Of a DNA stretch of 64,000 bases, positions 11,223 through 32,879 are shown in pieces. The position numbers were made by a program, and so were the translations under genes. A model generated the notes under the pieces. The model was not told the origin of the DNA. It searched no databases and worked only from the letters and a program-made list of their open reading frames with translations. Origin of the DNA: Impatiens glandulifera (lineage: Eukaryota; Streptophyta; Magnoliopsida; Ericales; Balsaminaceae). The stretch covers positions 37,643,758 through 37,707,757 of the forward strand of contig NC_061862.1 of NCBI RefSeq assembly GCF_907164915.1, given 5' to 3'. Each line of letters starts with the position of its first letter. Positions within the stretch are counted from its first letter, which is position 1.

Positions 11223-11573
11223 AAACATAATAGACACATATAGTCATCTTTAAGCAATGAATAGGGTTAGACCCTCATTTAGACACAATTTATGATAATT
11301 AAAAAAGCAAAAGAGTTATGAACTCAAAACGCATGTGTAACAATCCTTTCAAACATTGAAAATTTGGCTAACTATTTTCAACTACAGACTACCTCTTGTG
11401 AACAGGCATGAGTAATATAACGTTGAGGGTAGGGACATATCTAGAATTTGGAGTTGGGGTAAGCTTAATATGAATTAACAAAAAAATTGTAATTAAAAAA
11501 CAAAAGGTAAATATTTCGCACTTCATCTGATCGCACGATAGATCATGTTGTACAGAAGTAGGGGTAACAGAAG

Positions 11574-12242
11574 TAGGGGTGTAAGCAAAACCGAAAAATC
11601 CAAACCGAAATAATTATAATCAACCGAATTGAGTTCTGTCTGGTTCATATTCTTGTACTGAACATGGCATCTTCGGTTTGGTGGTTTATATAATAAAAAA
11701 ACCAACGGTTTAACCGACCGATCGTATATATACGTGTTTTTGATATATTTATAAATATATGTCCTTTTATCTTAGTGGTAACTCTTGAACATAATAAATT
11801 TTTTGTTCAGGATCGAATTTTGGCCACACACAAATTATTATTTTGTATATTTCATGTCTTTTTTCTTTCTTAAACTCATTTAATTAATATTCTAAATATT
11901 TTTTTAAGTTAAATAGTTATTTTATCATTTAATTTATAAAATTTTATTATAAACTCAACTAGTTTTTTTCTTCTTTAGTTTATTATATATTATATATATA
12001 TATATATTTTATTTATAAAACTAAACTAATTTTTTCATTTTTTATTATATTAGTTTATAAATATATTTGTTATTTTTTCAACGATTAAACTAATAAATCG
12101 ACCGAACCGATTTTATAACCGACCAAACCGATACGATCATTAACCGCTAACTGACAGATGAAATTTTGAAAAAAACGACACCAATGTTTGAGAAGAATGT
12201 TTCGATAAAAAAATCGAACGAACCGAAACGTTTACACCCCTA
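11574..12242. mobile_element. hAT-like MITE, copy in tandem unit 1
   Basis: The terminal inverted repeats are TAGGGGTGTAA at the left and its reverse complement TTACACCCCTA at the right. Left flank AACAGAAG; the right flank has lost one A compared with units 2 and 3. The interior is rich in AACCGA/TCGGTT motifs and has no coding capacity. TIR type and 8-bp duplication fit a non-autonomous hAT element. Confidence 0.75.
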
Positions 12243-12756
12243 ACCGAAGTAGACCAAGATAGTAATATTATATTGGATTGAAAAAATAGGAAATTAGAGG
12301 GTAGTTTTGACCTTATTTTATGAAAATAATTTTAAAAAATTGAGATAGACTTGAGCCCATAAACACATTCTCACAACCTCTCTCAAGTCACATCCAAATA
12401 ATTATAAATTTATAATAAAAAAAATTTAACAAAACTAACAATTAATTAATTAATACTTCTTAATTATTAATTAAGATATGAATCAACATCTCAATTAACT
12501 CTCTTTTTATTTTAATTCATTTAGCTCTCTCCTTTAATAATAAGTCTTAGTTCTTTCTCCTTTAAAATATAGTTGTCACCATTAAAAACTAAATTAAGTA
12601 TATATATAATAATAAAATTTTAGTTTAACCGTTCTAAAAAAATAGTTTAACCTCGGCTAGATCATAGTTTTCAAAACAAAATTTGAGTTTGACGGACATA
12701 GCTTGACTAGGCTTAAGCTTCATCTTACTCATTTATCTAATTCCCTATATGTAAGG

Positions 12757-12794
<38 letters not shown>

Positions 12795-12796
12795 CT

Positions 12797-12836
<40 letters not shown>

Positions 12837-13317
12837 GTATATATATATATATATATATATATAATTATATATATATATATATAATTTGGTAGGGTGGGCT
12901 TAAGTCTAGAGAGTCCCCACATACCTATGTCTCTTGCTAATTTTCATTTCTCACATGGAAAATGGAAACATAATAGACACATATAGTCATCTTTAAGCAA
13001 TGAATAGGGTTAGACCCTCATTTAGACACAATTTAGTGATAATTAAAAAAGCAAAAGAGTTATGAACTCAAAACGCATGTGTAACAATCCTTTCAAACAT
13101 TGAAAATTTGGCTAACTATTTTCAACTACAGACTACCTCTTGTGAACAGGCATGAGTAATATAACGTTGAGGGTAGGGACATATCTAGAATTTGAGTTGG
13201 GGTAAGCTTAATATGAATTAACAAAAAAATTGTAATTAAAAAACAAAAGGTAAATATTTCGCACTTCATCTGATCGCACGATAGATCATGTTGTAACAGA
13301 AGTAGGGGTAACAGAAG

Positions 13318-13988
13318 TAGGGGTGTAAGCAAAACCGAAAAATCCAAACCGAAATAATTATAAATCAACCGAATTGAGTTCTGTCTGGTTCATATTCTTG
13401 TACTGAACATGGCATCTTCGGTTGGTGGTTTATATAATAAAAAACCAACGTTTAACCGACCGATCGTATATATACGTGTTTTTGATATATTTATAAATAT
13501 ATGTCCTTTTATCTTAGTGGTAATCTTGAACATAATAAATTTTTTTGTTCAGGATCGAATTTTGGCACACACAAATTTATTATTTTGTATATTTCATGTC
13601 TTTTTTCTTTCTTAAACTCATTTAATTAATATTCTAAATATTTTTTTAAGTTAAATAGTTATTTTATCATTTAATTTATTAAATTTTATTATAAAACTCA
13701 ACTAGTTTTTTTCTTCTTTAGTTTATTATATATTATATATATATATATATATTTTATTTATAAAACTAAACTAATTTTTTCATTTTTTATTATATTAGTT
13801 TATAATATATATTTGTTATTTTTTCAACGATTAAACTAATAAATCGACCGAACCGATTTTATAACCGACCAAACCGATACGATCATTAACCGCTAACTGA
13901 CAGATGAAAATTTTGAAAAAACGACACCAATGTTTGAGAAGAATTTTTCGATAAAAAAATCGAACGAACCGAAACGTTTACACCCCTA
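13318..13988. mobile_element. hAT-like MITE, copy in tandem unit 2
   Basis: Same element as at 11574-12242. Flanked by AACAGAAG (13310-13317) and AACCGAAG (13989-13996), an 8-bp duplication with one mismatch. Because the same flank recurs in all three units, the MITE was present before the unit was triplicated. Confidence 0.78.
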
Positions 13989-14534
13989 AACCGAAGTAGA
14001 CCAAGATAGTAATATTATATTGGATTGAAAAAATAGGAAATTAGAGGGTAGTTTGACCTTATTTTATGAAAATTAATTTTAAAAAATTGAGATAGACTTG
14101 AGCCCATTAAACACATTCTCACAACCTCTCTCAAGTCACATCCAAATAATTATAAATTTATAATAAAAAAACTTTAACAAAACTAAACAATTAATTAATT
14201 AATACTTCTTAATTATTAATTAAGATATGAATCAACATCTCAATAACTCTCTTTTTATTTTAATTCATTTAGCTCTCTCCTTTAATAATAAGTCTTAGTT
14301 TCTTTCTCCTTTAAAATATAGTTGTCACCATTAAAAACTAAATTAAGTATATATATAATAATAAATTTTAGTTTAACCGTTCTAAAAAAATAGTTTAACC
14401 TCGGCTAGATCATAGTTTTCAAAACAAAATTTGAGTTTGACGGACATAGCTTGACTAGGCTTAAGCTTCATCTTACTCATTTATCTAATTCCCTATATGT
14501 AAGGTATAATATATATATATATAATATATATATA

Positions 14535-14635
<101 letters not shown>

Positions 14636-15064
14636 GGTAGGGTGGGCTTAAGTCTAGAGAGTCCCCACATACCTATGTCTCTTGCTAATTTTCATTTCTC
14701 ACATGGAAAATGAAACATAATAGACACATATAGTCATCTTTAAGCAATGAATAGGGTTAGACCCTCATTTAGACACAATTTATGATAATTAAAAAAGCAA
14801 AAGAGTTATGAACTCAAAACGCATGTGTAACAATCCTTTCAAACATTGAAAATTTGGCTAACTATTTTCAACTACAGACTACCTCTTGTGAACAGGCATG
14901 AGTAATATAACGTTGAGGGTAGGGACATATCTAGAATTTGGAGTTGGGGTAAGCTTAATATGAATTAACAAAAAAATTGTGATTAAAAAACAAAAGGTAA
15001 ATATTTCGCACTTCATCTGATCGCACGATAGATCATGTTGTAACAGAAGTAGGGGTAACAGAAG

Positions 15065-15740
15065 TAGGGGTGTAAGCAAAACCGAAAAATCCAAACCGAA
15101 ATAATTATAAATCAACCGAATTGAGTTCTGTCTGGTTCATATTCTTGTACTGAACATGGCATCTTCGGTTGGTGGTTTATATAATAAAAAACCAACGGTT
15201 TAACCGACCGATCGTATATATACGTGTTTTTGATATATTTATAAATATATGTCCTTTTATCTTAGTGGTAAATCTTGAACATAATAAATTTTTTTGTTCA
15301 GGATCGAATTTTGGCACACACAAATTTATTATTTTGTATATTTCATGTCTTTTTTCTTTCTTAAACTCATTTAATTAATATTCTAAAATATTTTTTTAAG
15401 TTAAATAGTTATTTTATCATTTAATTTATTAAAATTTTATTATAAAACTCAACTAGTTTTTTTTCTTCTTTAGTTTATTATATATTATATATATATATAT
15501 ATATTTTATTTATAAAACTAAACTAATTTTTTCATTTTTTATTATATTAGTTTATAATATATATTTGTTATTTTTTCAACGATTAAACTAATAAATCGAC
15601 TGAACCGATTTTATAACCGACCAAACCGATACGATCATTAACCGCTAACTGACAGATGAAAATTTTGAAAAAACGACACCAATGTTTGAGAAGAATTTTT
15701 CGATAAAAAAATCGAACGAACCGAAACGTTTACACCCCTA
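15065..15740. mobile_element. hAT-like MITE, copy in tandem unit 3
   Basis: Same element, with flanks AACAGAAG (15057-15064) and AACCGAAG (15741-15748). The terminal inverted repeats are intact as in unit 2. Confidence 0.78.
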
Positions 15741-16259
15741 AACCGAAGTAGACCAAGATAGTAATATTATATTGGATTGAAAAAATAGGAAATTAGAGGG
15801 TAGTTTGACCTTATTTTATGAAAATTAATTTTAAAAAATTGAGATAGACTTGAGCCCATTAAACACATTCTCACAACCTCTCTCAAGTCACATCCAAATA
15901 ATTATAAATTTATAATAAAAATTTTTTTAACAAAACTAAACAATTAATTAATTAATACTTCTTAATTATTAATTAAGATATGAATCAACATCTCAATTAA
16001 CTCTCTTTTTATTTTAATTCATTTAGCTCTCTCCTTTAATAATAAGTCTTAGTTTCTTTCTCCTTTAAAATATAGTTGTCACCATTAAAAACTAAATTAA
16101 GTATATATATAATAATAAAATTTTAGTTTAACCGTTCTAAAAAAATTAGTTTAACTCGGCTAGATCATAGTTTTCAAAACAAAATTTGAGTTTGACGGAC
16201 ATAGCTTGACTAGGCTTAAGCTTCATCTTACTCATTTATCTAATTCCCTATATGTAAGG

Positions 16260-16334
<75 letters not shown>

Positions 16335-16407
16335 GGTAGGGTGGGCTTAAGTCTAGAGAGTCCCCACATACCTATGTCTCTTGCTAATTTTCATTTCTCA
16401 CATGGAA

Positions 16408-17051: not shown

Positions 17052-17805
17052 CCCCTTAATCTCGTTATACCACTTCAACTTATTTGACACTAAGCCTCAA
17101 ACGTATCTCGATGAACTTTTTCCTCCCCGATGCCTTTGTTAGGATATCATCTAGCTGTCCATCAGTGCCAACGTGGTCAATGTCCATCTTGCTTACTTCA
17201 ATGCACACTCAGATATAATGAAACATCGTGTCAATGTGTTTACTCCTCTCATGATGAATTGGATTCTTACAAAGAGCAATGGCTGACTTGTTATCAACTA
17301 ATAATTTGAATTTCAATTCTTTACACCCAACTAGCTCGCCAATAAGTCGACTTAGCCAGACCCCTTGACATGTCGTTGTCGCCTCTAAGATGTACTCGTC
17401 CTCGTATGAAGATAAAGTAACAATCTTCTACTTATGTGAAGTCCAAGTCAAAATGTAACTTCCAATAAAGAAAACTATCCTGGAGGTGCTTTTACGGTCG
17501 TCAACATCTCTAGCGAGATAACTATCGTTGTATCCTTCTAATGTAGCTTCACTTCCTTCCGATATATAACATCACCCATAACCCAACGTACCTCGTATGT
17601 AATGAAGTATCTGCTTGATCGAAGCCCAATATTAGGAACTTGGCGCCTCTATGTATGAACTTACTATGCCCACAACATGAGCAATATCAGGTTTACTAGG
17701 TAGAAAAGACTGTCGGTACGCTCCGATACCTTGTTGCATCCACAACCATACTCCCGTCATTCTTGCTGAGATGGAGACGATGCTCCATTGGACTATGACA
17801 CGGGT
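17052..17805 (-). pseudogene. Copia RNase H, 3' part of split pol
   Basis: Read on the minus strand, this encodes the Copia RNase H region, including a D-N-K-S-A-I-A-L-C-K-N-P motif and H-H-E-R-S-K-H-I-D near 17220-17310. It ends in D-I-L-T-K-A-S-G-R close to 17120, with a stop at about 17088. Several stops are present. It is the continuation of 30331-32879. Confidence 0.82.
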
Positions 17806-19068
17806 TGTTAGGATCTAGGTCGGGGCTGGGGAACCGGGGTCTGACCGGTTTACACCTTTCACTCAACGGTTGGTGTTTAATCTGGTTAGAGGTTTCAATA
17901 CTACACAGGCTGTCACAAACCCTTGAACCGAGTTCAAGTGCAGAAGTGGTTTGTTTCAGACTGAAGCAACACGCACACGGGATGAATGAGGCCGGATTTG
18001 GATAAAGTCGGTTTGGAGTTTAGTGGGTCGGTTTAAGTAATGTTTAATCGATTAGGGAGGTATGAGTCGGTTAGTATGAATCGGTTAGAATGTAAAGTCG
18101 ACAAAAAGTAAACAAGACAGGTTTTTTTGGATGTTCGGAGATGAAACTCCTACGTCACCCCTTCTTCTCGAAACCGCGAGAAGGATATTTACTAAGGAAT
18201 ACACAAACACAATATCCGATCAAGACTTATTTTCTGCTCGATAAACACTCGTACAATTCTCACCGAAATTGTAATCTTACTTCAAATGCACACTTAAGCT
18301 TTTTAATCTTAGAGAGATAAACGCAACTTATAACTTGGGTTGTTGTAACTGCTAGAACTGGTAACTACATTTACTCCTCTTCAGTTTCTTCTTTTATAGG
18401 TGAAATGTGCCAACGGTCACATTTCTTCTCCTTGAATCTAATTGGTTGAGCAGAGGTTTAGTGATTCAAACCTGGCGGTTTATGCTTCCAATGCGTAGAT
18501 CAAACCGACTAGGTTTGTCTTTTACTTAATGTAGCAATTGTCGGTTGGACAGTTGCCTACACCTGGAAGGTTGCGCCTCTGACTTATCCCAGAATGGAAA
18601 GATCTCTTCAGACGGTCTTCTGTAGCCTGCAGAGTATCCTCAGACTTGTATGGATATGGCAATTTTACAGTCTGTTCCTTTGGTATCATCTTCCGCAGAT
18701 ACTCAAAGTATCTGTTTACACCGATTTGTAGATTGTACTTAGTTTGATGTTCTTGGCTTCTTTCTCTAAGTAGCTTCTTCGTCGGTTTTTCGGTTGGATA
18801 CATTTCGGTTTAGGATGTCTACCGGTTGTTTAGGTTAACCGGATGACTTCAAGTTTTTCATAGCTTCAGGTTAACAGGATGACTTCCGGTTTTGGTTACA
18901 TTTTTTGCCTTGTCTTCTAACCGGTTTTGTTTTCCTGATCGGTTGAATTCTTGAACGGTTGGATTACATGACTGGTTGGATTATTTTACCGATTCTGGTT
19001 CTTAACCGTTCCTGCACAGGAAGTTTGTTTTTGTTAAGTTCTATTAACCGGTCTAATTTTATCTAACA
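17806..19068 (-). repeat. 3' LTR of the SIRE-type element
   Basis: It matches 29055-30330, with a 12-bp or so gap near 17890 and scattered substitutions. It is rich in CCGGTT-like motifs and contains a 93-codon open frame also kept in the other LTR. Confidence 0.93.
18522..18803 (-). CDS. LTR-borne small ORF, 93 aa (3' LTR copy)
   Basis: An open frame of 93 codons that begins M-Y-P-T and ends C-Y-I-K. The same frame with the same start and stop is present in the 5' LTR at 29784-30065, with about 11 amino-acid differences. The product would be basic and partly helical, with no signal peptide or membrane segment. I do not recognise it. Because LTRs also hold promoter and polyadenylation signals, the frame may be chance. 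What is notable is that both copies stay open. Confidence 0.35.
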   Translation of the reverse strand: MYPTEKPTKKLLRERSQEHQTKYNLQIGVNRYFEYLRKMIPKEQTVKLPYPYKSEDTLQATEDRLKRSFHSGISQRRNLPGVGNCPTDNCYIK

Positions 19069-19313
19069 ATTTCTCCCTTTTTGATTATTTTATTTAAAAT
19101 ATTCAAAACCATGTAAGAATTAAAATGTAGGTCGGTTGTTTTAAAAGTTTATGTGGCCGGATTTTTGGAAAATGACTTAGAAAATTTTTTCGAAAAATTT
19201 TGGAAAAATTTGAGAAAAATGTTGAAGAAAATTTTTATCTTATCAATTTCTCCATTTTTGATTATTTTATTTAAATTATTCAAAACCATGCAAGAATTAA
19301 AATGTAGGCCGGT
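19069..19313 (-). repeat. Polypurine tract region, partly duplicated
   Basis: The polypurine tract on the minus strand (AAAAAGGGAGAAAT) ends at the 3' LTR boundary, 19069. A segment of about 69 bp, 19069-19137, recurs at 19245-19313 with few differences (AAAAATGGAGAAAT at the matching place). Both copies hold the T-rich run read as the purine tract, so the element has a second, slightly altered tract 176 bp upstream. Confidence 0.8.
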
Positions 19314-19388
19314 TTCCAAAAATACTTTATATATATATAAGTGGGAAATATATTAGAATTGACATAAGTAGTAGATAATTAAAATTTT

Positions 19389-21150
19389 CTATTCCCTCTT
19401 CTTAGGCATGAATTTTTCCCATAGGTAGTCGGTCATCATTCCCTTTCCCGGATTGCAGGGATCGGCGCCAACTCTGGAGGAGGATCCCTGACCGCCCGAG
19501 GTCCTGGTGAATGGTGAGACCGGTGAAGGAACCGATCTGAGTGGAATCGCTTCGAGACCCCGCATTCTTTTGAGCGGCGGTACGACCTCTTCCTCGAGTT
19601 CTTCGTCCTCTTGTGAAGCCGGGTTGATTGGAAGAGGAGTAGCCAGTTCAACAATGTTGTCCAATAGCTTTGTAACCGCTGCCCTCTTGTGATGAAATCT
19701 GGAAAAGAGTGACGCTTCTTGGTGAGCAGGTTCCGATTCTAACAGTGCCAACTCATCGGTCAGTTCCCGTTCCTTAGCCGTTAGCATTTCCAGCACTAAG
19801 GCCTCGAAGTGGGATTCTTCCGTCCCAGGTATATGTTTTTCACGAAGATAACGAACGTGGACGGAAAGTTCTATCAATCTGGCATGCGGTTCGACCATCT
19901 TCCCTCTTTGAAGAGCGGTCACCATGCTCTTAGCTTTTGTATGGTTTAGCACCGATGTTTCCATCTCAATTAGCTTTTCATATCTCCGGTCTGCGGGATG
20001 CGCCGGTAATATATTGGCATAAAGAACTTCCTGCCGGTTTTGAGCCCATTGAAAGTAGACATCGCTCGCAGCGTGAGCCTGATCGTAAAGTTTCTCCAAT
20101 ATTTGGGAGACAAGTTCTTCTACCAACTATCGAACGTTTTCGTTTGCGGTTTCAAATCTTTCCGGTTGCCTGGCTGAACCGGTTTCGACATCAACATTTT
20201 TGGCTGGTTGTTCATCGACCATCTTCCCCTTCCCTTTGTTTGACTGATTCTCCTCGGTGTTGTGGGAGTGAGTCCGGCTAGATCTAGCCGTCGAGTTCTC
20301 CGGATTAGGGGTGTCGGCCTGAATATTAGCAGACCCGGTCTTGTGCGGAACCGATTTGTTTCCGGACTGTTCACCCGCCGGAGCCTTTTTCTTTCTAGGC
20401 TGTGATTTCTTTCGGGTGTTTTTACTGGCGGAGACCTTTGTCTTGCCCGGTTTGTCCTCCGATTTCATAAAGTGATGGGATTTTATGATCTTGCTGGGAG
20501 GAGTAAAAACGCCCGGACCAGTTTCGGCATTGAAGTGGCGCATTAGCTTTCCAAGTGGAACGGCGTATTCCCACGACCGTTTTGAAGATGGATCCACCAT
20601 CTCACATAAGTTAGAGAAGATTACCTTGGCCCAGTTGATCTTTATTCCTCTGACCAAACCGGCTATCATCTCAATCTTAGAGCATGTGAGGCGATCGTAG
20701 TTGCCTCCCCTTCCTTGGAACCGACTTTGTGAGAATCTCGCAAAGTGGCCTATACTCCGGTTTGAGGTCGTTCTTCTTGTCGGACACTGCTATCGGTTCT
20801 TTAGTATCCGAAACTTTACCGCAAACCGCAATGAAAACATCCTCCTTTGTAAGAACCGAGAAGTCGCTCCCCTCTGTCGGTAATCGGAGAACCTCAGCAA
20901 CCGATTCTTTTGTGAGACGAAACGGTTTTCCGCCGATTGTTGCGGTTATAACACCTTTACTGTGGACGGCGGTTTGGAAAAATTCCATGACCGCGTCTTG
21001 ATACAGAATGAACGGTCCGCTCAGAAAGTGTTCAAGACCAGAAGCATAAATAAGATCTAGCATCTGTTTAGCTTCCGTCGATCTGATTGCTCGAATTTAT
21101 TCGAAGTCGACTTGGAAGATGTGAGTAAAAAGAACAGATTCGCGACCCAT
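19389..21150 (-). pseudogene. Extra gene C: paralogous domain plus long C-terminal extension
   Basis: The likely start is the ATG at 21150 (M-G-R-E-S-V), about 110 bp after a TATAAATA box. In frame it would give roughly 585 residues. The first 230 or so match genes A and B: V-D-F-E near residue 15, M-E-F-F-Q-T-A near 55, L-P-T-E-G near 90, and I-N-W-A-K-V-I-F-S-N-L near 160. There follow a Lys/Ser-rich basic linker (20430-20127), then a helical, Glu-rich segment that could form coiled coil (20126-19560), an acidic patch, and the end F-M-P-K-K-R-E. Three breaks are visible: TAA at codon 18 (21097-21099), a one-base frameshift in a G-rich run near 20705, and an in-frame TAG at 20127-20129. I do not know its function. 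The basic plus coiled-coil design suggests nucleic acid or protein binding, which is inference. Confidence 0.7.
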
Positions 21151-21260
21151 TTTTACTTGGAGAGACCGACAGATTGAAAGATTGAGAGCTTAAGAGAATT
21201 TTGAGTGCTAGAGAGAGAAAGCAATTTCGCGGAAGAAAGAAATAAAATGACTGATGAGGG

Positions 21261-21268
21261 TATTTATA
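21261..21268 (-). promoter_or_regulatory. TATA box of extra gene C
   Basis: On the minus strand GGGTATAAATACC, a strong plant TATA box, 111-118 bp before the ATG at 21150. The stretch between box and ATG is CT-rich like a plant 5' UTR. Confidence 0.6.
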
Positions 21269-21315
21269 CCCGCGGATTGGAGTGTAAACCGCCGCGAACC
21301 GTCACATCAAGAGTT

Positions 21316-21380
21316 GGCGGGAAATTTTCCTCCAAAATGTCTTTGGGCGGCAAGTTTTGGCGGGATTTTTTTGAGCGGGA
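21316..21380 (-). promoter_or_regulatory. Cluster of E2F-like GGCGGGA sites upstream of gene C
   Basis: GGCGGGAAA at 21316-21324 (TTTCCCGCC on the gene strand), GGCGGGATTT near 21358-21367 and AGCGGGAAG near 21373-21381. The first matches the E2F consensus TTTSSCGC exactly. They lie 50-120 bp upstream of the TATA box. Function is inferred only from the match. Confidence 0.35.
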
Positions 21381-21615
21381 AGCATTTAAGGCAGTTATTT
21401 TTGTAACCGATTATTAGAGAGGCGGTTATTTAACCGGTAATTTAGAGAATCGAAAGGCGATTTTAACCGGTTGGAATTTAAACCAATATTTAAACTTAAT
21501 AATTTTGAACCGATACTTGAAAATTAATATTCATTTTTAATTAACGAAGAGAAACATGATAGAGCCGATGTGAAAATCGGTTTAAGAAACAATTACAAGG
21601 GTAGGATTGAATATC

Positions 21616-22311
21616 CTAAATCATTCTAGAGATTTTTTTCATTCGCCATTTCTCGTTGAGGATGTTTGAGGGATTCACCGGTGTACCCGGTCCAAGATTT
21701 GGAACGTTGGCCCAAAGGAACCGGCTCAGTTGAGGAGCATTGCCGAACCGTTTCTTCGTTTCGACCATGGTTTTCAAGTTGTTGGAGATGACCGATGCCC
21801 AGTTTATGGGGGTATGGCTGACGATGTAGGTCATCATGTCGAAAGCTTTTCTAGAATAGTTTTGGTTCGGAGATTGGCAGATGATGGACCGGTTAATGAT
21901 CTCATGCATGAGTTGGATGTGAGGGGCGAGGTCGGCGTTAATGCCGTGATTCTCCACCGGTGTGTCGGTTCCGGAGAACATTTCAGCGTAATCAACCGCT
22001 GCGCTGCCCACCCATGAAGGGAAATCTGAGAACCCCTCAATGGGAAGATTGAACATTTCGGATAGTCCGCTCTCGGGAATAACGATAATATTGTTTTTCA
22101 CTATGGAGACAATGGCATCGCCGAGCATGGATGCATTATCGAAAAATTCCAACACCTCTGGAATGAATAGAGGTCCGGATTCTTTGAGGAAACCGCGAAG
22201 GCCGGTGTCGTCAAGGGATTCAAAAAGTATCTCCCTTACTTCAACATCCTCCATGTCGAGGACAAATTCGAAGTCGATGCATAGGTAATTTCTGAGAGTG
22301 CGATGAGACAT
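21616..22311 (-). CDS. Extra gene B: intact copy of the paralogous domain, 231 aa
   Basis: An open frame from ATG 22311 to the stop at 21616-21618, with no internal stops. Shared with A and C: I-D-F-E at residues 13-16, V-L-E-F-F-D-N-A near 53-60, L-P-I-E-G near 89-93, H-E-I-I-N-R-S-I near 136-143, P-I-N-W-A-S-V near 168-174, and G-P-G-T-P-V near 208-213. It has no signal peptide, membrane span or catalytic motif that I recognise. I recall a family of plant transposon-encoded proteins with a similar pattern (Pfam calls one 'putative plant transposon protein'), but membership needs a profile search. It ends shortly after the shared domain, without the extension of C. It has its own TATA-like box and sits about 470 bp from gene C. 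Confidence 0.7.
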   Translation of the reverse strand: MSHRTLRNYLCIDFEFVLDMEDVEVREILFESLDDTGLRGFLKESGPLFIPEVLEFFDNASMLGDAIVSIVKNNIIVIPESGLSEMFNLPIEGFSDFPSWVGSAAVDYAEMFSGTDTPVENHGINADLAPHIQLMHEIINRSIICQSPNQNYSRKAFDMMTYIVSHTPINWASVISNNLKTMVETKKRFGNAPQLSRFLWANVPNLGPGTPVNPSNILNEKWRMKKISRMI

Positions 22312-22385
22312 GTTTCTGATTTTGCTTAAAGAGAGAGTTTACAATATTTTGTTTGGAGGTGTGTTGGTGTGAAGAGGAGAAGTTT

Positions 22386-22393
22386 CTTAAATA
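22386..22393 (-). promoter_or_regulatory. TATA-like box of extra gene B
   Basis: TATTTAAG on the minus strand, 75-82 bp before ATG 22311, followed by a CT- and A-rich leader. Confidence 0.45.
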
Positions 22394-22723
22394 GATATGA
22401 AATTGGAGGGAAAGTTTGAGCATTTAATGTTGATATTCCGTTTTGTCTCATTAATGCTAGGAATATTTGTATTTTCAAAACGCCTTGGGAAGTGGTTACT
22501 TTTTGACCGATTGCGGAGCCCGAGGCTGAGAATCTAGTTGGAAAGGAACTAAGTTTATGTAATTCCCCATGCAGTTGGAATTCAAAAGTTTGTTTTCATT
22601 AATGGAAAAGGAATTACAATAAACCGAAAGAAACATGGATTAAACCGAAAGGGATCATAATTGAGTAGGATAACAATACAATCGGTACATGGAGCAAAAT
22701 GACCGGTTGTTGGAGGAGTGACT

Positions 22724-23467
22724 TTAATGGCCGGAGTTGGTAAGGTGCCGGTTCTTCTTCTTCCAGGCCTTCTCGAATCGCTCATAGAAGGCGTCGGCGG
22801 ATTCCCAGGTCACGACTTGGGACTGGTTCAGCCCCTCGCCCGGACATAGCGGAACTCCGAGTTCCATAAGTAGAGAGCTGATATGAGGAATGAAGCCGGT
22901 ATGACAGGTGGTGATCATCCAAATCAGGATGTCGAACAGCACCCTGGACCAATTGACCGGAGTATCAGTTGTGATAGCGGTCATGATGTTGAAGACGGTG
23001 GCGCAGTAGGTGTTTGTGACTTCTTTCCCCAAGATGGCTCTACCGATGATGTCATTGAGAAGCTGGTATTCAGCCCTCAATGATGACCGAGCTCCGTGGT
23101 CATCGACCGGACGGTTCGAGCGAGAGAAGTTCAAAGAGATTTCGGCTTTTAGTTCGGCCGGAGCGTTCAGATCGGTAAGACCTTGCTTCGGAAGGTCGAA
23201 GTACCGAGCAAAATCATGCTCGGAGAAGTCAAACACGGTTCCTCCAACCCTAGATTGGATGAGGGTATCAAAGTACGGAGTACTGCGGAAGACCCTAGCG
23301 TTATGGAAAAATTCGAGTACGGTTTCAGGGAAGATGACATGTTTGTCATCTAGAAAGGGTTTTAGACCGATACTCTCTAGAGATTTAAGCATCTTGAATA
23401 TCTCATAATGTTCTGTCCCTTGAGTGGAATCAAAATCAACTTGGAGAATGTTTTGAAACTAAGACAT
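22724..23467 (-). pseudogene. Extra gene A: paralogous domain with an early stop
   Basis: The frame from ATG 23467 has TAG as its third codon (23459-23461), then stays open to 22724, about 247 codons in all. A later Met at 23392 could start a 222-residue product. Shared motifs: V-D-F-D just after the stop, V-L-E-F-F-H-N-A near 23320, L-P-K-Q-G-L-T-D near 23190-23170, L-L-N-D-I-I-G-R-A-I near 23060-23030, and P-V-N-W-S-R-V-L-F near 22960-22935. It ends in a Lys-rich tail (W-K-K-K-N-R-H). Similar in length to gene B. Function unknown. Confidence 0.65.
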
Positions 23468-23526
23468 TTTTGTCTTAGTGAGATGATAAGTTGATATTTG
23501 TGGATATTTGTTTGATGTTCGTCTAA

Positions 23527-23534
23527 CTTATATA
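23527..23534 (-). promoter_or_regulatory. TATA-like box of extra gene A
   Basis: TATATAAG on the minus strand, 60-67 bp before ATG 23467. The leader between them is A-rich with few G residues, as in plant 5' UTRs. Confidence 0.45.
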
Positions 23535-23996
23535 TTAGTTGAGGGGTGATAGTATTATCTAGTGGGTGGCAGGTGATTTAGTTTATTAACCATAGGATAG
23601 AGCATTTTGCATGAATTAGGTATGTCTACAGCCTAAGGTGTGAGTCATAGGCCTGGACGGTGAGAGATATCATATCTTCACGTCTTTTGAGGTATGACTA
23701 TTTTGCTTTGAAAAGGTATCCTTTCAGAACAGATACATCTAAACATAGACAGTTGTTCCAGTTTTGTTAGGGAGCCAAATAATCCAGAATATATATTATA
23801 TTCAAACCGGTTAGTTTTCAGTCATTGGTCCCGATGCGGTTAATTAGTGTAAGCACTAAGTAACCGGTCGGTTTACTGTAACTGATAGACGAAGCGGTTC
23901 TTCAATAAATACAATGGTAAATTCGGTTTCCGACATTTTAGGAAGAATTGTCGGTTTTGTCTGTCCGAACCGATTTTCCCTTTAAAGATTAAAGGT

Positions 23997-26900
23997 TTAA
24001 GAAATGAGTTGATTAATATCGGTTAAGCCGAGTATGTTTCTGAAGTAAGAAAACTTAGCTTCCTGCAGCGGCTTTGTGAAGATATCGGCTACTTGTTGTT
24101 CTGTTGATACGTATTCCAGTCGGATATGCTTTAACATGACATGTTCCCGGATGAAATGATGCCGTATGTCGATGTGCTTGGTTCTAGAGTGTAAAACCGG
24201 ATTGTACGTGATTTCTATGGCACTTGTGTTGTCACAGAAAATTGGAGATTCTTCGGCGGTGATACTGAAGTCCTTTAGTTGTTGAATCCATAGGAGTTGT
24301 GAACAACAACTTCCTACTGCCAGATATTCAGCCTCTACGGTTGATATAGCAACCGATGTTTGCTTCTTGCTGTGCCATGACACAAGCTGGTCACCTAAGA
24401 ATTGGCATGTTCCGCTAGTACTTTTTATGTCAACTTTACAACCTGCATAGTCTGTATCGGAGTAAGTACTTGTGAGGTTAAAAGATGAGTCTTTCGGATA
24501 CCACAGACCGACTTCAGGGGTTCCCTTTAGATATTTTAGGATTCGCTTAGCGGCTGTATAGTGAGACTGTTTGGGATTAGCCTGAAATCTTCCACACACT
24601 CCGACTGCAAATAGTATGTCCGGTCTACTTGCTGTCAGGTATAAGTGTGAACCAATGATTCCACGATAGGCGGTCAGATCTACTGCCTGACCGTCATCAT
24701 CTTTGTTCAGCTTAATTGATGAGCTCATTGGCGTAGCCGCGGAGGAGCATGTGTCCATCCCAAATTTCTTCAGAAGTTTCTTTGTGTATTTGGGCTGACT
24801 GATGAAGGTTCCTCCTTCGAGTTGTTTAACCTGAAGGCTTAGGAAGAAGCTTAATTCTCCCATCATACTCATCTCAAATTTTTTATTCATCAAGGTTGAG
24901 AATTTATCACACAGCTTAGGATCGGTTGATCCAAAAATGATATCATCCACATATATTTGAACAAGTAGAATGTGTCCCTTTTTCTCAAATTTAAATATGG
25001 TTTTATCCACTGAACCTATGGTGAAATCATGATGTAACAGAAATGCGGTTAATGTATCATACCAAGCTCTAGGAGCTTGTTTTAAACCGTACAGTGCTTT
25101 ATTTAGGCGGTATACATGATTAGGTAGGTCAGCATTTTTAAAACCGGGTGTTTGTTCAACATATACTTCCTCACGTAAGTCACCATTTAAGAATGCACTT
25201 TTAACATCCATTTGGAAAACTTTAAAGTTTTTGAAAACAACGAATGCTAGAAAAATCCTAATGGCTTCAATTCTAGCTACAGGAGCAAATGATTCTTCAA
25301 AGTTAATGCCTTCTTCCTGTTTGTATCCTTGTGCCACTAATCTAGCTTTGTTCCTCGTAACCAAACCGTCTTCATTGAGTTTATTTCTGAATACTCATCT
25401 TGTTCCTATGACCGGTTGATCTTTCGGTCTAAAGACTAGGTACCAGACTTTGTTACTCTCAAACTGGTTTAACCCTTCTTGCATTCCCAAGATCCAATCC
25501 GGATCCGACAATGCTTCATCCACCCTTTTCGGCTCAATCTGGGATATGAACGCGAAATTAAAGTATTCCTCCAGTATTTGTTGCTTAGTTTGGACAGGTT
25601 TTGAAGGGTCACCTATAATAAGGTCAGGAGGATGATTTGTGTTCCTTTTAAGATTCGGTTCAAGAGTGTCTATCAAATTACCGTTTGTTTGATCAAGGCT
25701 AGACATATCGGTAGGCTGAACAATAATGTCAGACCGAACGATTTCCTCAGTTTGAACCGAGGTGTCAGCTTCCTACTGTGTGGCAGCTTGATCCGGCTGG
25801 GTTTCATCAGCACCCGTTTGGTCATAGACAAACCGTCTGAAAACCGGAACCTCATCTTCACTATCAGAATGGATATTGTTATTTTCCAATCTGTTGTGTA
25901 GATCAAAGGATGATGCGGTGTTATATTCAACCGATTCATCGAATACAACATGAAGAGATTCCTCCACGGTTAAAGTACTAGTATTATATACTCTATATGC
26001 TTTACTAACTTCTGAGTAACCTAGCATGATCACAATATCGGATTTTGCATCAAAAGCAGATAAGTAGTTTTTGCCATTTATGTGAATGTAACACTTACAA
26101 CCGAAAATTTTGAGATACCTAATGTTAGGAATCCTATCAAAATATACTTCATACGGTATTTTGTTGTGAAACTTGTTGATCAAAGACCGGTTTTGTGTAT
26201 AACATGCAGTATTGATAGCCTCAGCCCAGAATTTTTGAACAACACATGAATCGGCTATCATTGACCTTGCGGCTTCCTTAAGAGTTCGGTTTTTTCTCTC
26301 GGCCAGGCCATTCTGTTGAGGAGTTCTAGCACTAGACAACTCGTGTCTAATGTCGGATTCATCAAGAAATTCATTTAGAGTACTATTTGTAAATTCAGTT
26401 CCTCTATCACTCCTAATGATGTTTATGCGTGTTGATTTTTCATTTTGCAAACGTTTAAGCAATGTAATTAAATTTGATGTGGTTTCACGTTTAGATGCCA
26501 AAAATATGAGTCATCTATACCTAGAATAATCATCAAAAACTAACATAGTGTAAAGCATACCACCTAGACTGGTGACCCTAATCGGTCCAAATAAATCCAT
26601 GTGAAGGAGACCTAAGCATCGGTTAGACTGAATGTGTCTTTTACTCTTGAAGGTTGACTTAGTTTGTTTACCCATTTGACATGCTGAACACACCTTATCT
26701 TTATTAAATACTATATCAGTAATTCCTTCAACTAGCTTTTTACCGCGGATATAATTTAAAGTTTTGAGGTTTAGCCTTTTATGCCATAGTCAGGTTTGAT
26801 CGGTTTTAGCTACCATGCAAACAGGATGTTCTACTTCACTTTTCCAGTCTACCTTGTATATATTTCCTAACCTATCTCCGGTTAGTAGTATGTTAACCTG

Positions 26901-27254
26901 AGAGTTTATAACTAAGGATGCATGTTTGAGAAATTCTACTGTATATCCAGCATCACACATCTGACTAATGCTTAGTAGGTTAAAATGTAGATTTTCAACT
27001 AGAAGTACATTATCAATTGTTAAATTACCATGGACAATCTTACCCTTGCCCACAGTTCTACCTCTTGTGTTGTCACCGAAGACAATCATTGCACCGATTT
27101 CTATTTTGATGTCGGTTAGAAGGTTGTTGTTTTCAGTCATGTGTCTAGAGCAACCGCTGTCTAAGTACCACTCAGAGTTTCCTAGCCGTTTCTTCATATC
27201 CTGCAAAATATACATATTTACAACTATTTGGTACCCACATTTACTTGGGTCCAC
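23997..27254 (-). pseudogene. SIRE-type pol: protease to RNase H, one frame with four stops
   Basis: From 27254 to 23997 the domains lie in one unbroken frame interrupted only by nonsense codons: TGA at 26790, TGA at 26511, TAG at 25773 and TGA at 25395. Order: protease with D-S-G-C-S-R-H-M near 27155; integrase with the Asp of H-M-D-L-F-G-P near 26600, the Asp of R-S-D-R-G-T-E-F near 26405 and the Glu of A-E-R-K-N-R-T-L near 26300; reverse transcriptase with M-D-V-K-S-A-F near 25207 and Y-V-D-D near 24945-24955; and RNase H with its Asp, Glu and Asp near 24455, 24330 and 24230. The last block, 25364-23997, is 455 codons without a break. All catalytic residues I looked for are present, so only the stops inactivate it. 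Confidence 0.92.
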
Positions 27255-28205
27255 AATTGATTAGTCCCTTGGGTATCCACACTTTAATAAGTCGGATAAC
27301 TTTCCCAGTTATAGTTCTAACTAGTTTTCCTGTACTCGGTTTGACATCTTTTTGTTTTCCTAAGAGTGCCTTGTTTTGTGGTGGCATTTGGTTTATTCTT
27401 TGTGGTCGTGGATCGGTTTGCTTACCTTTTGGCCAGTTGGCTTTCCTTTTCTCAGGATGAAGCCATTTTTCGAAAGTCAGTTGGACTTACATAGGTTATT
27501 TCGTCTTCCGGTTTTGAATCACTTTGTTCTTCATCGTCGGTGGAAGAGCTCTTGAAAAATCTTACAAAGGGAAGATTGTCTTTTGTGAGCTTCATTTTGT
27601 CCGAATGGTTCCGGTTGGCGGATTTGTTGTTTTTGTACCCAAGACCGAGTTTGCATTTGGGATGTCTCTTATACTTAGACAACTGATTCACCATTTCAGT
27701 GGATCTTTTCCATGCGGCTATTTGATACCGGGTTCGGGCATCGTCCTCTTCGGTCAACTCTTGAACTGACTCCTTGAACTGTTCAGTCTCAAAGGATAGT
27801 TCAGGTGCTGCCTCGGTTTCTAGGATTACATTAGGTTGGATGGTTTTTGGTTCGGACAGGGTTGGTGCTCTGGGGTCGGTTCTAAAGTTGAGTTGGGTTG
27901 GTATTAAGGTTAAATAGGTTCTTATACTCTGCTACCATGTCATTTAGTGCATTAAATAACTCATCTTTAGTAAATTCTTCACAAGGAGAGTCAAATACTT
28001 GTTCCTCATTTGCCATGAAACACGTGAGTTCATCATCGCTGTCACTGTGAGCCCATAAGCTTCCTCCATCATCGGCTATCAGTGCTTTCTGAACTTCCCT
28101 TTCTTCACCAGTTTGTAGATAGTTGTTTCGGTAGTTCTGATCATCCGATTTCCGGTCATCCCGTCTTGGTTTTCTGCATTTCCCCCTTATATGTCCCAAA
28201 AAATT
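27255..28205 (-). pseudogene. SIRE-type gag end and gag-pol joint, two frameshifts
   Basis: After the zinc-knuckle stop at 28206 the same frame stays open to 27882 (G-H-I-R-G-K-C-R-K-P at its start, then an acidic stretch). The match then continues in another frame from about 27840 to 27452 (E-L-T-E-E-D-D-A and a Lys-rich segment), and returns to the pol frame by 27254. This gives two frameshifts, one near 27840-27880 and one between 27452 and 27260. Confidence 0.75.
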
Positions 28206-29015
28206 TCAATTATAACATCTAACATTAGATTTATCACGGTAGTTATAGTTGTTGTTTGTCGGTTGACTTTTCTTCATGAATCTGCCAAACTTCTGTGCAA
28301 GCATTGCCATGGCATCTTCAGTAAACTGTTCAGCGGTTCTAATCGGTGCAGGAGTAGCCGGTTCCATAGATGTGACTAAGGCCTTTGTAGAGGTTGAAGC
28401 TGAAACTTCATCTTCAATCCTAGATTTCATCTCAAACTCATATGCCTTAAGATCTTCGAATACATCGTGTAGCTTCATCTTGCTTAGGCAGTTTGATTGC
28501 CTCATCACCATTGTCTTTATATCCCATACGCTCGGAAGAGATCTTAAGGCTTTCATGATGGTATCCTTGTTATCATACTTCTTTCCAAGGGTTGATAGCT
28601 CATTTATCACATCTGTAAACCGGTCACTGTACTCCCTCATTGTTTCTCCTCGTTTCATCTTCATGTTTTCAAACTTCTGGGTAGCCACCATTAACTTGTT
28701 TTCCTTGGTTCTTTCATTTCCCCCATGAAGTTGAATCACCGTTTCCCATATTTCCTTTGCGGTTTCACAATCTCTGACCTTACAAAAGGTATTCATGTCC
28801 AAGCCGTTGATGATGTGGTTTCTAGCATGGTTGTCCAGATTATTTCTTCTCCTAACTTCTTTTGTCCAATCCTCCCTATCTTTATAAATCCTTATCGGTC
28901 CTTCAGACAGGATGAACGGCATCTCATCATCCATAGTGATTAAGTGCAGGTGCATGCGTAACTTCCAGTTGACGAAATCATCACCTTCTAGCATTGGAGA
29001 CTTCTCGAAAGTCAT
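28206..29015 (-). pseudogene. SIRE-type gag, stop inside the zinc knuckle
   Basis: The ATG at 29015 lies 26 bp after the primer binding site. The 269-residue frame carries the Copia Gag region (W-K-L-R-M near residue 17, then a long helical capsid-like part with M-R-E-Y-S-D-R-F near 125). It ends at TGA 28206-28208. That codon takes the place of the second Cys of a C-x2-C-x4-H-x4-C zinc knuckle: C-Y-N precedes it and G-H-I-R-G-K-C follows. One base change thus both ends Gag and removes a zinc ligand. Confidence 0.9.
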
Positions 29016-29040
29016 GCTTGCTTGAGTATTGAAACTAACT

Positions 29041-29052
29041 GCTCTAATACCA
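29041..29052 (-). other. Primer binding site of the SIRE-type element
   Basis: On the minus strand TGGTATTAGAGC, two bases after the 5' LTR end. It is one base off the common initiator tRNA-Met site. Confidence 0.88.
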
Positions 29053-29054
29053 AT

Positions 29055-30330
29055 TGTTAAGATCTAGGTCGGGGCTGGGAATTGGGGTCTGACCGGTGTA
29101 CACCTTTCACTTAACGGTTGGTGTTTAATCCAGTTAGAGATTAACACTGGGTTTCAATACTACACAAGCTGTCACAAACCCTTGAACCGAGTTCAAGTGC
29201 GGAAGTGGTTTGTTTCAGACTGAAGCAACACGCATAAGGGATGAATGAGGCCAGATTTGGATAGAGTCGCTTTGGAGTTTAGTGGGTCAGTTTAAGTAAT
29301 GTTTAATCGGTTAGGGAGGTATGAGTCGGTTAGTATGAATCGGTTAGAATGTAAAGCCGGCAGAAAGTAAAGAACAAGACAGGTTTTTATGGATGTTCGG
29401 AGATGAAACTCCTACGTCACCCCTTCTTCTCGAAACCGCGAGAAGGATATTCACTAAGGAATTCACAAACACAATATCCGATCGAGACTTATTTTCTTCT
29501 CGATAAACACTCGTAAAATTCTCACCGAAATTGTAATCTTACTTCAAATGCACACTTAAGCTTTTTAATCTTAGAGAGATAAAGGCAACTTATAACTTGG
29601 GTTGTTGTAACTGCTAGAACTGGTAACTACATTTACTCCTCTTCAGCTTCTTCTTTTATAGGTGAAATGTGCCAACGGTCACATTTCTTCTCCTTGAATC
29701 TGATTGGTTGAGCAGAGGTTCAGTGATTCAGACCTGACGGTTTAGGATTCCAATGCGTAGGTCAAACCGACTAGGTTTGTCTTTTACTTAATGTAGCAAA
29801 TGTCGGTTGGATAGTTGCCTGCACCTGGAAGGTTGCGCCTCTGACTTATCACAGAATGGAAAAATCTCTTCAGGCGGTCTTCTGCAGCCTGCAGAGTATC
29901 CTCAGACTTGTATGGATATGGAAATGTTACAGTCTGTTCCTTTGGTATCATCTTCCGCAGATACTCAAAGTATCTGTTTGCACCGATTTGTAGATTGTAC
30001 TTAGTTTGATGTTCTTGGCTTCTTTCTCTAAGTAGCTTCTTCGTCGGTTTTCCGGTTGGATACATTTCGGTTTAGGATGTCTACCGGTTGTTTAGGTTAA
30101 CCGGATGATTTCAGGTTTTTCATAGCTTCAGGTTAACCGGATGACTTCCGGTTTTGGTTACATCTTTTGTCTTGTCTTGTAACCGGTCTTGTTTTCCTGA
30201 TTGGTTGGATTCTTGACCGGTTGGATTACTTGACCGGTTGGATTATTTTACCGATTCTGGTTCTTAACCATTCCTGCACAGGAAGTTTGTTTTTGTTAAG
30301 TTCTATTAATCGGTCTAATTTTATCTAACA
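29055..30330 (-). repeat. 5' LTR of the SIRE-type element
   Basis: It starts TGTTAGATAAAATTAG at 30330 on the minus strand and ends TTAACA at 29055, next to the primer binding site. It matches 17806-19068. Confidence 0.94.
29784..30065 (-). CDS. LTR-borne small ORF, 93 aa (5' LTR copy)
   Basis: Same frame as 18522-18803, with start and stop in the same places. It differs at about 11 of 93 residues. No recognised domain. It would lie near the start of any transcript begun in this LTR only if the start site is upstream of 30065, which I cannot tell. Confidence 0.35.
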   Translation of the reverse strand: MYPTGKPTKKLLRERSQEHQTKYNLQIGANRYFEYLRKMIPKEQTVTFPYPYKSEDTLQAAEDRLKRFFHSVISQRRNLPGAGNYPTDICYIK

Positions 30331-32879
30331 CGAGTTATAGTCACACATGCCAGCTTTCTCCAAAATCTTTGTAGCATATGCCTTTTGACACAATGTAATC
30401 TCATTTTCGTTTTGACGTACTTTGATCCCCAAATAGTAACTTTGAAGACTAAGGTCGCTCATTTTCAAAATTTCTTCCATTTGTGTCTTGATTAATGATG
30501 TCTTGTACACTTGTGCCTGTAATAATCAAGTCATCCACATAGACACCCACCGATAAGAAAGATTTAGTACCATACTTGAGCGGGTTTCTTGTGAAACTAG
30601 GTGAAGTAAAGGAGGTATCCATTTTTTAGTACCATGCTCGTGGTGCTTGTTAGAGCCCATAAAATGCCATACTCATCTTAAGAACATTACCTCCATTCTT
30701 GGAATCGATGAACCCGGGTGGTTGTTCTACATAGACCTCCTTTGCGAGATCACCATTCAAGAATACTAACTTCATGTCCATGTGGTGTAATTTCCACTTG
30801 CTTTGTGCAAAGAGTGCGGTTAACATATGTACTATTTCCATTTTTGTTACTGGAGAAAAAATTTCCTCGAAATTCACCCTTTTGCGTTGCACATATCCTT
30901 TTGCGACGAGTCTCACCTTGTGTTTCACGACGTTGACATAGGGGGTCCTTTTAACTTTGAACATCCATTTAAGTCCAATGGCTCGATGACCAATTAGAAG
31001 TGACACAAGCTCCCACATCTTGTTCTCAAGAATCGACTTCATCTCTTCCTACATGACATCCTTCCAAGATACATTGGTAAGTACCTTGTCCACGCTTTTA
31101 GGCTTCTCAACCGCCAAAAAACAAAGTTCACTTACTTCGACATTAACGACATAATAAGTAGGATTTTAAATGTCTTCAACCCGTCGGTAACGTCAAGGTT
31201 CTAAATTGGTATTGAGGGTGTCATCATGTGTTGGGCGGTGTGTCCCACTAGTTTTACCACGAATATAGCACAAGCATTTGTGACTCTAGTTCCCGTGCAC
31301 TAGATTCAAAACTCTGGTCTATGGGTGACCACCATGCATATAACTGGTGTTTTTCCCATATCCGTGCTATCAACTATCTCCCAATTCAAGACACGATGTT
31401 TCTCGAAAACGTCTTTGGTCATGTTTAACTGCTTCCTAGCTGAATCATACACCTGATAGGCTTTCGCTCCCTCTTTGTATCCCACTATTACCCCAGGCGT
31501 TGAGTGATCCACGAGAATGTGAATGTCCGGACCGAGATTCTTCACATGTGCTACGCAGCCAAAAGTCCTCAAATGGTGTACGTTAGGCTTCCTCTTGTTT
31601 CAAGCCTCGTAAGACGTCATGCCTTCAACACTCCTTGTAGGTGCGTAATTTAGGAGATATATATTCGTCTTTACTGCCTCTCCTTAGAACATACCCAGTA
31701 CTTTCATTGACTTCATAAGACAACGTTCCATCTCTAATACTATTTGGTTACACCTCTCTATGACGCCATTTTGTTGTGGTGAGTAGTAAGTCATAGTGTT
31801 GTTCTTAATACCGTTCTTCTCACAAAATTCTACGAATGCATCAGAATTGAACTTGCCTCCTCGTTCGGATCGAAATGCGATCAATTTGCACTTGTGTTTT
31901 TCTTCTACTACCTCTTTGATGTTTTTGAAGTAGAGCAACACTTTGTACTTCATTTAGAGCACCTCAAGCCACATATATCGATTTAAGTCATCGACTACAA
32001 ACAAAAAATACAATTTCCCACATCCGGTTGTTGGTGTGATCGAGCCACACAGATCGATGTGAACTAACTCTATGAGGCATTGTGCTCGATATTTAGTGGT
32101 TTGTAAAAATGGAGTCTTGTGCTGTTTTTCGAGCACACAATCATCACAGAACTTCTCCACATGCTTGATTTTTGGAATAATATGTACTAACCCCTTGAGC
32201 GAGAGATTTCAAAGATCACTGAAGTACAAATAACTAAAGCATGCATGCCGCAACCACACGATATCAAACTTTTAAGTCAATAGACTTACTGGTGTTGCGA
32301 GATTCAGTTTAAACGTGTAAATTCAATTATGTGTTTGCTGAACCCGAGCAAGTATTTTTCTTAAGTGATTAGAGATACAAAGTATCTTATTTTTTATGAC
32401 GATCTTGCAACCATTTTTTTCTCATGTTGACAAAGTTAGAGGAGATTACTCTTTATGCTTGGGATATAGAACACATCAAATAGAATATTATGGTCGCTAA
32501 CAACATATTCAATCATTACCATGCCCTTTATGCATATATTTACCACAGAATTGTCGTCGAACCGTACTTTACCCTTTACGATTTTGTCAAGATTTGTAAA
32601 CATCTTCTTGTCAATCGTCATGTGACTACTAGCTTTGGTGTCTAGGTATCCGTTAGTGTTATCCCTAGGTACTAAATTTTATTCATTTAAAAATACCTCT
32701 AGTACGTCATCGCCATCGTCAACTGATGTTGTGGTACAGATTTGTGCCATTAGTAGCATCAGACCTTCATCTTCCTTAGAATTTGCTTCTGCGAGATTCA
32801 TTTACTCTAGGTGCTCTCGGTCTCGCTTCTCCTTGCGACATTCCTTGACCCAATGACTACAGATTCCACAGTAATTACA
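30331..32879 (-). pseudogene. Pol of the split Copia element, broken
   Basis: Reading on the minus strand: a C-x2-C-x4-H-x4-C zinc knuckle at 32838-32879, protease region near 32640-32436, an integrase-zinc segment near 32160 (C-D-D-C-V-L-E-K-Q-H), integrase core with H-I-D-L-C-G-S near 32060 and N-G-V-I-E-R near 31760, then reverse transcriptase from about 31042 (M-W-E-L-V, and M-D-M-K-L-V-F-L-N-G-D-L near 30780). The frame is cut at 30331 by the SIRE-type insertion and resumes at 17805. Numerous stops and shifts make it non-functional. Confidence 0.85.

Follow-up and report, generated by a model that had tools for sequence, protein, structure and literature searches.

Three paralogous accessory genes with candidate internal promoters in a SIRE-type Copia retrotransposon of Impatiens glandulifera

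Extra open reading frames (ORFs) lying in sense orientation between pol and the 3' long terminal repeat (LTR) are known from SIRE-type Copia retrotransposons as the eORF-3'F or env-like ORFs of Sirevirus and Maximus elements, and were reported in 74% of SIRE elements as very heterogeneous sequences (PMC6317226). For the Sirevirus env-like genes an internal promoter has been postulated, with CpG islands located 5' of them, and the proposed promoter was not conclusively identified (Neumann et al., 2010; PMC2829016). An extra ORF of sunflower Athila encodes a Transposase_32 (PF20167) protein (PMC11728184), and gene23 of maize Grande is an accessory LTR-retrotransposon gene whose own promoter was demonstrated by experiment (PMC7264820). 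In Impatiens glandulifera, we analyzed a SIRE-type Copia element that carries three related accessory genes, A, B and C, between pol and its 3' LTR. It occupies positions 17805-30330 of a 64 000-nucleotide (nt) stretch of contig NC_061862.1, hereafter the window, in an assembly of 653.9 Mb; the features of the element lie on the reverse strand.

Several properties distinguish this locus from the described systems. In contrast to the SIRE ORFs mentioned above, the three genes represent paralogous versions of a single domain, and a conserved core-promoter unit accompanies each of them. By profile the domain belongs to the same family as the Athila protein; however, Athila is a Ty3/gypsy element with one such ORF, whereas the domain is present here in three copies in a Copia element, with A and B reaching only 22-24 of the 45 bits set as cut-off. 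Grande gene23 is a single antisense gene of a gypsy element, and its promoter was established experimentally, whereas the candidates here were recognized by sequence. With respect to the Sirevirus hypothesis, a CpG peak at 21001-21500 recalls the CpG islands, and there are three candidates with a conserved TATA box. It should be noted that A (247 codons) and B (231-233 codons) fall below the 250-codon limit of the SIRE survey (PMC6317226), and their counterparts in a sister family (253 and 252 codons) lie just above it; such trios may therefore have been overlooked. The initial annotation of this locus stated that a retrotransposon normally expresses everything from its LTR, which needs a qualifier in view of the antisense Grande gene with its own promoter (PMC7264820) and the internal promoter postulated for Sirevirus (PMC2829016). 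Already known are extra sense ORFs of SIRE elements, the PF20167 domain in an ORF of Athila and, in Grande, an accessory gene with its own promoter. What appears to be new, as far as the open-access literature searched goes, is a Copia element with a paralogous trio in which every member has a conserved core-promoter unit; no SIRE element with three such paralogues and candidate internal promoters was found in that literature. Foamy viruses use a second, internal promoter to drive their accessory genes. They provide an analogy only, being animal retroviruses with unrelated proteins.

In the window copy, B (21616-22311, 231 codons) is the sole open gene of the trio. Gene A (22724-23467, 247 codons) has an in-frame TAG at codon 3 from its ATG. 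Gene C (19389-21150), which combines an N-terminal paralogous domain with a basic linker and a heptad-like tail and also has an RKRK cluster, is broken by a stop at codon 18, by a frame change between the parts at 20677-21150 and 20127-20669, and by a second stop between the latter part and 19389-20126. Furthermore, approximately 0.9 kb is missing from C near 19689 (junction within 19680-19699) relative to other copies. An intron was ruled out, as the extra stretch is coding elsewhere and open in two copies (L023 and L043), and the gap is read as a deletion. Three related genes downstream of pol had been proposed in the initial annotation and are real, at the place given there, and the motifs named there are carried by the profile alignments described next; for C, the location held and the single frame did not.

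Profiles were built from 8 A, 10 B and 8 C copies picked for open frames, and the alignment of the three genes with one another, whose absence would have refuted the initial annotation, was obtained for every pair: A with B (P 99.7%, E 1e-26, 219 columns), B with the N-terminal part of C (P 98.9%, E 1.2e-17, 206 columns) and A with the same part of C (P 97.7%, E 1.7e-12, 209 columns). A tree of 39 A, 41 B and 40 C sequences resolved all three genes as monophyletic (support 0.71, 0.998 and 1.0, respectively), and mean identity among these sequences was 31% between A and B, 27% between B and C and 24% between A and C, compared with 78-86% within one gene. The duplications therefore predate the spread of the window's element family. 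By profile matching, the nearest family and the one consistent match is PF20167, a transposon-associated plant domain, which matched 8/8 A, 10/10 B and 8/8 C members (best E 2.3e-5, 1.1e-4 and 2.3e-9). A and B scored below the curated 45-bit cut-off (21.7-24.1 and 22.6 bits where given), the C part of the window copy reached 17.4 bits, and for gene C the cut-off was passed in relatives only; genome-wide, 43 of 150 scored hits exceeded it (one only with in-frame neighbours), and 8 of these 43 coincided with copies of C. Protein database searches with B and with the B profile found nothing, nor did a search of the B profile against the sequences of solved structures. Two AlphaFold2 models of window sequences had pLDDT values of 52.9 and 46.8, and Foldseek with the former model gave no match in the PDB at E <= 0.001, so that no fold is claimed. 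Three annotated proteins (P0003, P0004 and P0007) are copies of gene C that public databases name DNA ligase 1-like or calponin homology proteins, and appear to be misnamed transposon genes.

The trio recurs in the same order in 40 further copies, which were drawn from the 150 best B matches listed (those of the window's family being 66-100% identical). A and B are recognizable in all 40 and the domain of C in 39 (not in L033), whereas the end of C was seen in 36, being lost or beyond the stretch in L017, L034, L044 and L045. For these copies and that of the window (41 sequences), we compared differences seen once, which mostly arose after insertion, with those seen in at least six sequences, which are inherited, and expressed amino-acid-changing relative to silent differences (N/S) in proportion to opportunity; rows dropped before the counts were L028 and L038 for A, L033 for the C1 part of C and L019 and L034 for its C3a part. 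From single-copy to common variants, N/S fell from 1.76 to 0.10 in RNase H (Fisher p 8.5e-10), from 0.96 to 0.14 in A (p 8.7e-19) and from 1.28 to 0.25 in B (p 3.5e-15), and within C from 1.35 to 0.29 in C1 (p 2.4e-9), from 1.33 to 0.33 in C2 (p 9.8e-11) and from 1.28 to 0.48 in C3a (p 3.0e-4). The fall persisted without CpG-linked sites and without the near-duplicates L009 and L016 (p <= 2.3e-3). Since common variants are poor in amino-acid changes, A, B and C were all under selection during the multiplication of the element. The same logic has previously been applied to Sirevirus gag and pol (Dazeniere et al., 2022; PMC9073684), and by the argument of that study the fall in N/S also implies that each insertion benefits from the accessory products it encodes; in this way a single genome is enough to reveal selection on the accessory proteins. 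A group of three close copies within approximately 160 kb consists of L009, L016 and the window copy (at 37.51, 37.60 and 37.67 Mb), and unusual features in B and C shared by L009 and L016 suggest a segmental duplication.

Each gene is preceded by a TATA-like box and a leader resembling an untranslated region, as the initial annotation had described, and both recur in the other copies. The octamers are TATATAAG before A (23527-23534, exact in 33/39 sequences), the TATA-like TATTTAAG before B (22386-22393, 39/41) and TATAAATA before C (21261-21268, 38/40), and the leaders span 23468-23526, 22312-22385 and 21151-21260, respectively, the last one containing a pyrimidine patch. Box-to-ATG spacing was 58-59 nt for A (35/39), 74-81 nt for B (38/41) and 108-110 nt for C (37/40), with the ATG retained in 32/39, 38/41 and 38/40 sequences. 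ATG triplets numbered 0.09, 0.13 and 0.12 per 100 nt after the putative starts of A, B and C, compared with 2.59, 1.93 and 0.97 upstream. The fraction of flanking non-coding octamers kept equally well was 10.3% for A, 0.5% for B and 0.2% for C, and the density of common variants was low at the A box. TATAWAW or TATTTAAG occurs five times on 9.7 kb of the sense strand of the window element (a TA microsatellite excluded), three of these being the boxes described here; since such a site lies 60-130 nt upstream of only 3.7% of random positions, this exceeds chance expectation. The proximal promoter of C (21269-21400) contains [CG]CGCC[CA]AA motifs (2.17 per copy vs 0.01 in mononucleotide shuffles; present in 39/40 copies) and an E2F-like site (TTTCCCGC at 21324-21317; TTTSSCGC in 19/40 copies); neither motif was found in promoters A (39 sequences) and B (41). 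Common ancestry of the three promoters was considered and rejected, as they showed no mutual similarity at E 1 (blastn). CpG observed/expected was 0.92-1.47 in nearly all bins of 19001-24000 (one bin excepted), with its maximum at 21001-21500, and 0.39-0.86 over gag-pol (24001-29000). The spacer from pol to promoter A (23690-23996) has common variants at 0.11, as few as at codon positions 1 and 2.

Because the motif set above was picked after the sites had been seen, a sister family provides a fairer test. A PF20167 hit at 5.80 Mb (contig C5) belongs to this different family, whose reverse transcriptase/RNase H region is 83.5% identical to that of the window element over 455 residues. Its genes A', B' and C' are open (253, 252 and 955 residues), stand in the same order and share 35, 42 and 41% identity with A, B and C; with PF20167, C' scored 37.6 bits and B' 17.5 bits, and A' gave no match at E 0.1. 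One TATAWAW precedes each ATG, at 99 nt (A'), 110 nt (B') and 120 nt (C'). TATAWAW occurs six times in the 8.9 kb of this copy, and 6.2% of random positions are preceded by one at 60-150 nt, so that three of three genes would be expected by chance with a probability of about 2.4e-4. The promoters of C and C' could be aligned (mean z 10.3, for six of the 41 sequences of the window's family), and by eye the aligned parts include the block TTTTGGAGGGAAA, E2F-like sites at corresponding positions, the sequence TGACGGTTC, the TATA box and also the pyrimidine patch. Those of B and B' aligned more weakly (mean z 2.5), including CATTAAATGCTC, and cross-pair alignments gave z of 0.1 to 1.1. These comparisons suggest that the trio is older than the divergence of at least two families, the proteins having diverged to 35-42% identity compared with 84% for reverse transcriptase/RNase H, while promoter C is still recognizable. 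The recurrence of the trio, together with the fall in N/S with variant frequency, bears out the earlier suggestion of a small gene family maintained by the element. The sister family is abundant, its 150 best B' matches being 90-100% identical, and looks younger than that of the window. A protein search with C' returned nine models from Impatiens, of which seven are C-like and two are chimeric. One of the latter (P0009, an NCBI acetylajmalan esterase-like model) begins at the B' ATG and continues with a piece of C' and then a host esterase, and may be either an error of prediction or the trace of a transcript that starts from the B' promoter; in the other (P0008, sesquiterpene synthase-like), part of C' is inserted internally in the manner of an exon.

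On the basis of these results, we consider it probable that A, B and C are anciently duplicated, selected accessory genes, each of which would be expressed from its own internal promoter. The comparisons given above demonstrate common ancestry, fixed order and purifying selection, as well as conservation of the TATA-leader-ATG units and a matching arrangement in the sister family. The promoter step is a prediction drawn from sequence features: the proxy for an RNA polymerase II promoter was a TATA box at a conserved distance before an ATG-poor leader, and of the three separate promoters proposed in the initial annotation it is the conserved TATA and leader units that were confirmed. Several observations weigh against this view. 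The promoters of A and A' did not align (z -0.2, or 1.3 with a longer stretch), the A box is merely within the best tenth of local octamers, and the B box is a weak TATA in the window's family. The mean identity of spacers and leaders resembles that of the genes, and common variants are not scarce in the leaders of B and C (0.32 and 0.25 of sites, respectively, vs 0.39-0.44 at third codon positions). All further copies were located through B, so that recurrence among them is no gauge of trio loss, and the sister family is represented by one examined copy. A function for the proteins is a guess, with no fold and no solved relative. Finally, pyrimidine-AG tracts lie 6 nt (A), 12-13 nt (B) and approximately 55-57 nt (C) before the ATG in their commonest forms, and some of them rank among the best kept octamers. 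Such tracts would be expected if the genes were expressed by alternative splicing of LTR-driven RNA, the leaders being 3' splice sites and the TATA boxes incidental; splicing is the route predicted for the env-like genes of Bagy2 and Athila (PMC2829016), and the two chimeric NCBI models splice pieces of sister-family genes into host genes. However, the AG after the C patch is absent in C' and in L010, where TATA box and patch remain, and nearly all other local octamers are no better kept than the B and C boxes. The LTR and gag of the window copy contain no splice donor of at least 8/9 (there are two in pol), which is a weak argument. We regard the splicing route, which is the main rival, as unlikely, although it deserves some weight.

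An envelope-like role, in which the genes would encode membrane proteins for cell-to-cell movement, agrees with their position and sense orientation, in both of which they match the env-like ORFs known from SIRE elements (PMC6317226; PMC7264820). No transmembrane-grade segment was present in two A, three B and four partial C frames, the top 19-residue mean hydropathy being 1.49, and this role is very improbable. The sole exception, a hydrophobic tail of C in L043, results from a lost stop; the end of C was located in 18 of the 41 sequences, 16 of which stop before such a tail, and the idea that C ends in a membrane tail was therefore dismissed as an artefact. Capture from the host plant, which had been offered as an option in the initial annotation, would fit the gene-like look of the promoter-like and untranslated-region-like stretches. 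It found no support, since the one consistent match is a transposon-associated domain and the protein searches (B, B profile and C') gave no host source, and we attach hardly any credence to it. That the genes are remnants in decay or frames arisen by chance, preceded by TATA-like words of no significance, might be thought from the broken A and C of the window copy and from the frequency of such words in AT-rich DNA; for the coding part this is already refuted by the purifying selection on A, B and C, and the TATA boxes found before three of three genes in an independent family make it scarcely tenable as a whole.

Under the internal-promoter reading, LTR-driven RNA would serve gag-pol and the genome copy, whereas RNA polymerase II would transcribe A, B and C each from its own promoter, the mRNAs probably sharing the poly(A) site of the 3' LTR. 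Accessory proteins could then be produced independently of the LTR-driven gag-pol RNA, and promoter C, with its E2F-like site, may be active in dividing cells. Whether the element would thereby run a regulated programme of its own, with three promoters under different control and nested mRNAs as in a complex retrovirus, is a question on which we are evenly balanced. More speculatively, the proteins may be soluble intracellular helpers, with C as a nuclear scaffold, as its heptad-like tail and basic clusters might suggest, and A and B as separate proteins made of its domain alone, which may form pairs with C. As to their job, shielding of the element from host silencing is the likeliest, as a guess held with less than even confidence, and a role as nuclear, assembly or integration cofactor comes second and is likewise tentative; fast divergence between families combined with constraint within a family suggests a changing partner, and counter-silencing is therefore preferred. 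If true, the reading of a regulated programme would provide the extra genes of Sirevirus with the internal promoters postulated for them, and could contribute to explaining why the extra ORFs of SIRE elements look unrelated between elements. With regard to the function and expression of these ORFs, three short conserved candidate promoters are now open to direct test, and the trio is a concrete place to examine how such elements express extra genes.

The remaining features of the element place it, by domain content and order, among the Ty1/Copia retrotransposons. It was delimited through its LTRs and their ends (TG...CA) together with its gag and pol domains. The 5' LTR (29054-30330) is 94.3% identical to the 3' LTR (17805-19068) over 1278 columns and is directly followed by TGGTATTAGAGC, a putative Met-type primer-binding site (tRNA-Met) in which one base differs from the expected sequence. 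A single good polypurine tract lies at 19069-19082, with a degenerate second copy 177 nt upstream. Part of a Copia-type gag (28206-29015; Retrotran_gag_2, E 7.4e-27) is followed by the integrase part of pol (25773-26501; SH3_retrovirus, E 3.4e-23; rve, E 1.2e-7) and by reverse transcriptase and RNase H (23997-25364; RVT_2, E 6.4e-64); integrase thus precedes reverse transcriptase, as in Ty1/Copia elements, and the sense ORFs A, B and C between pol and the 3' LTR represent one trait of the SIRE lineage. The flanks (17740-17804 and 30331-32000) read as another Copia reverse transcriptase gene, with a possible 5-bp target duplication containing one mismatch, and the element therefore appears to be nested. 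Elsewhere in the window, positions 11223-16407 contain three tandem units of approximately 1.75 kb (spacing 1742-1755) with long TA runs, some segments of which are nearly identical.

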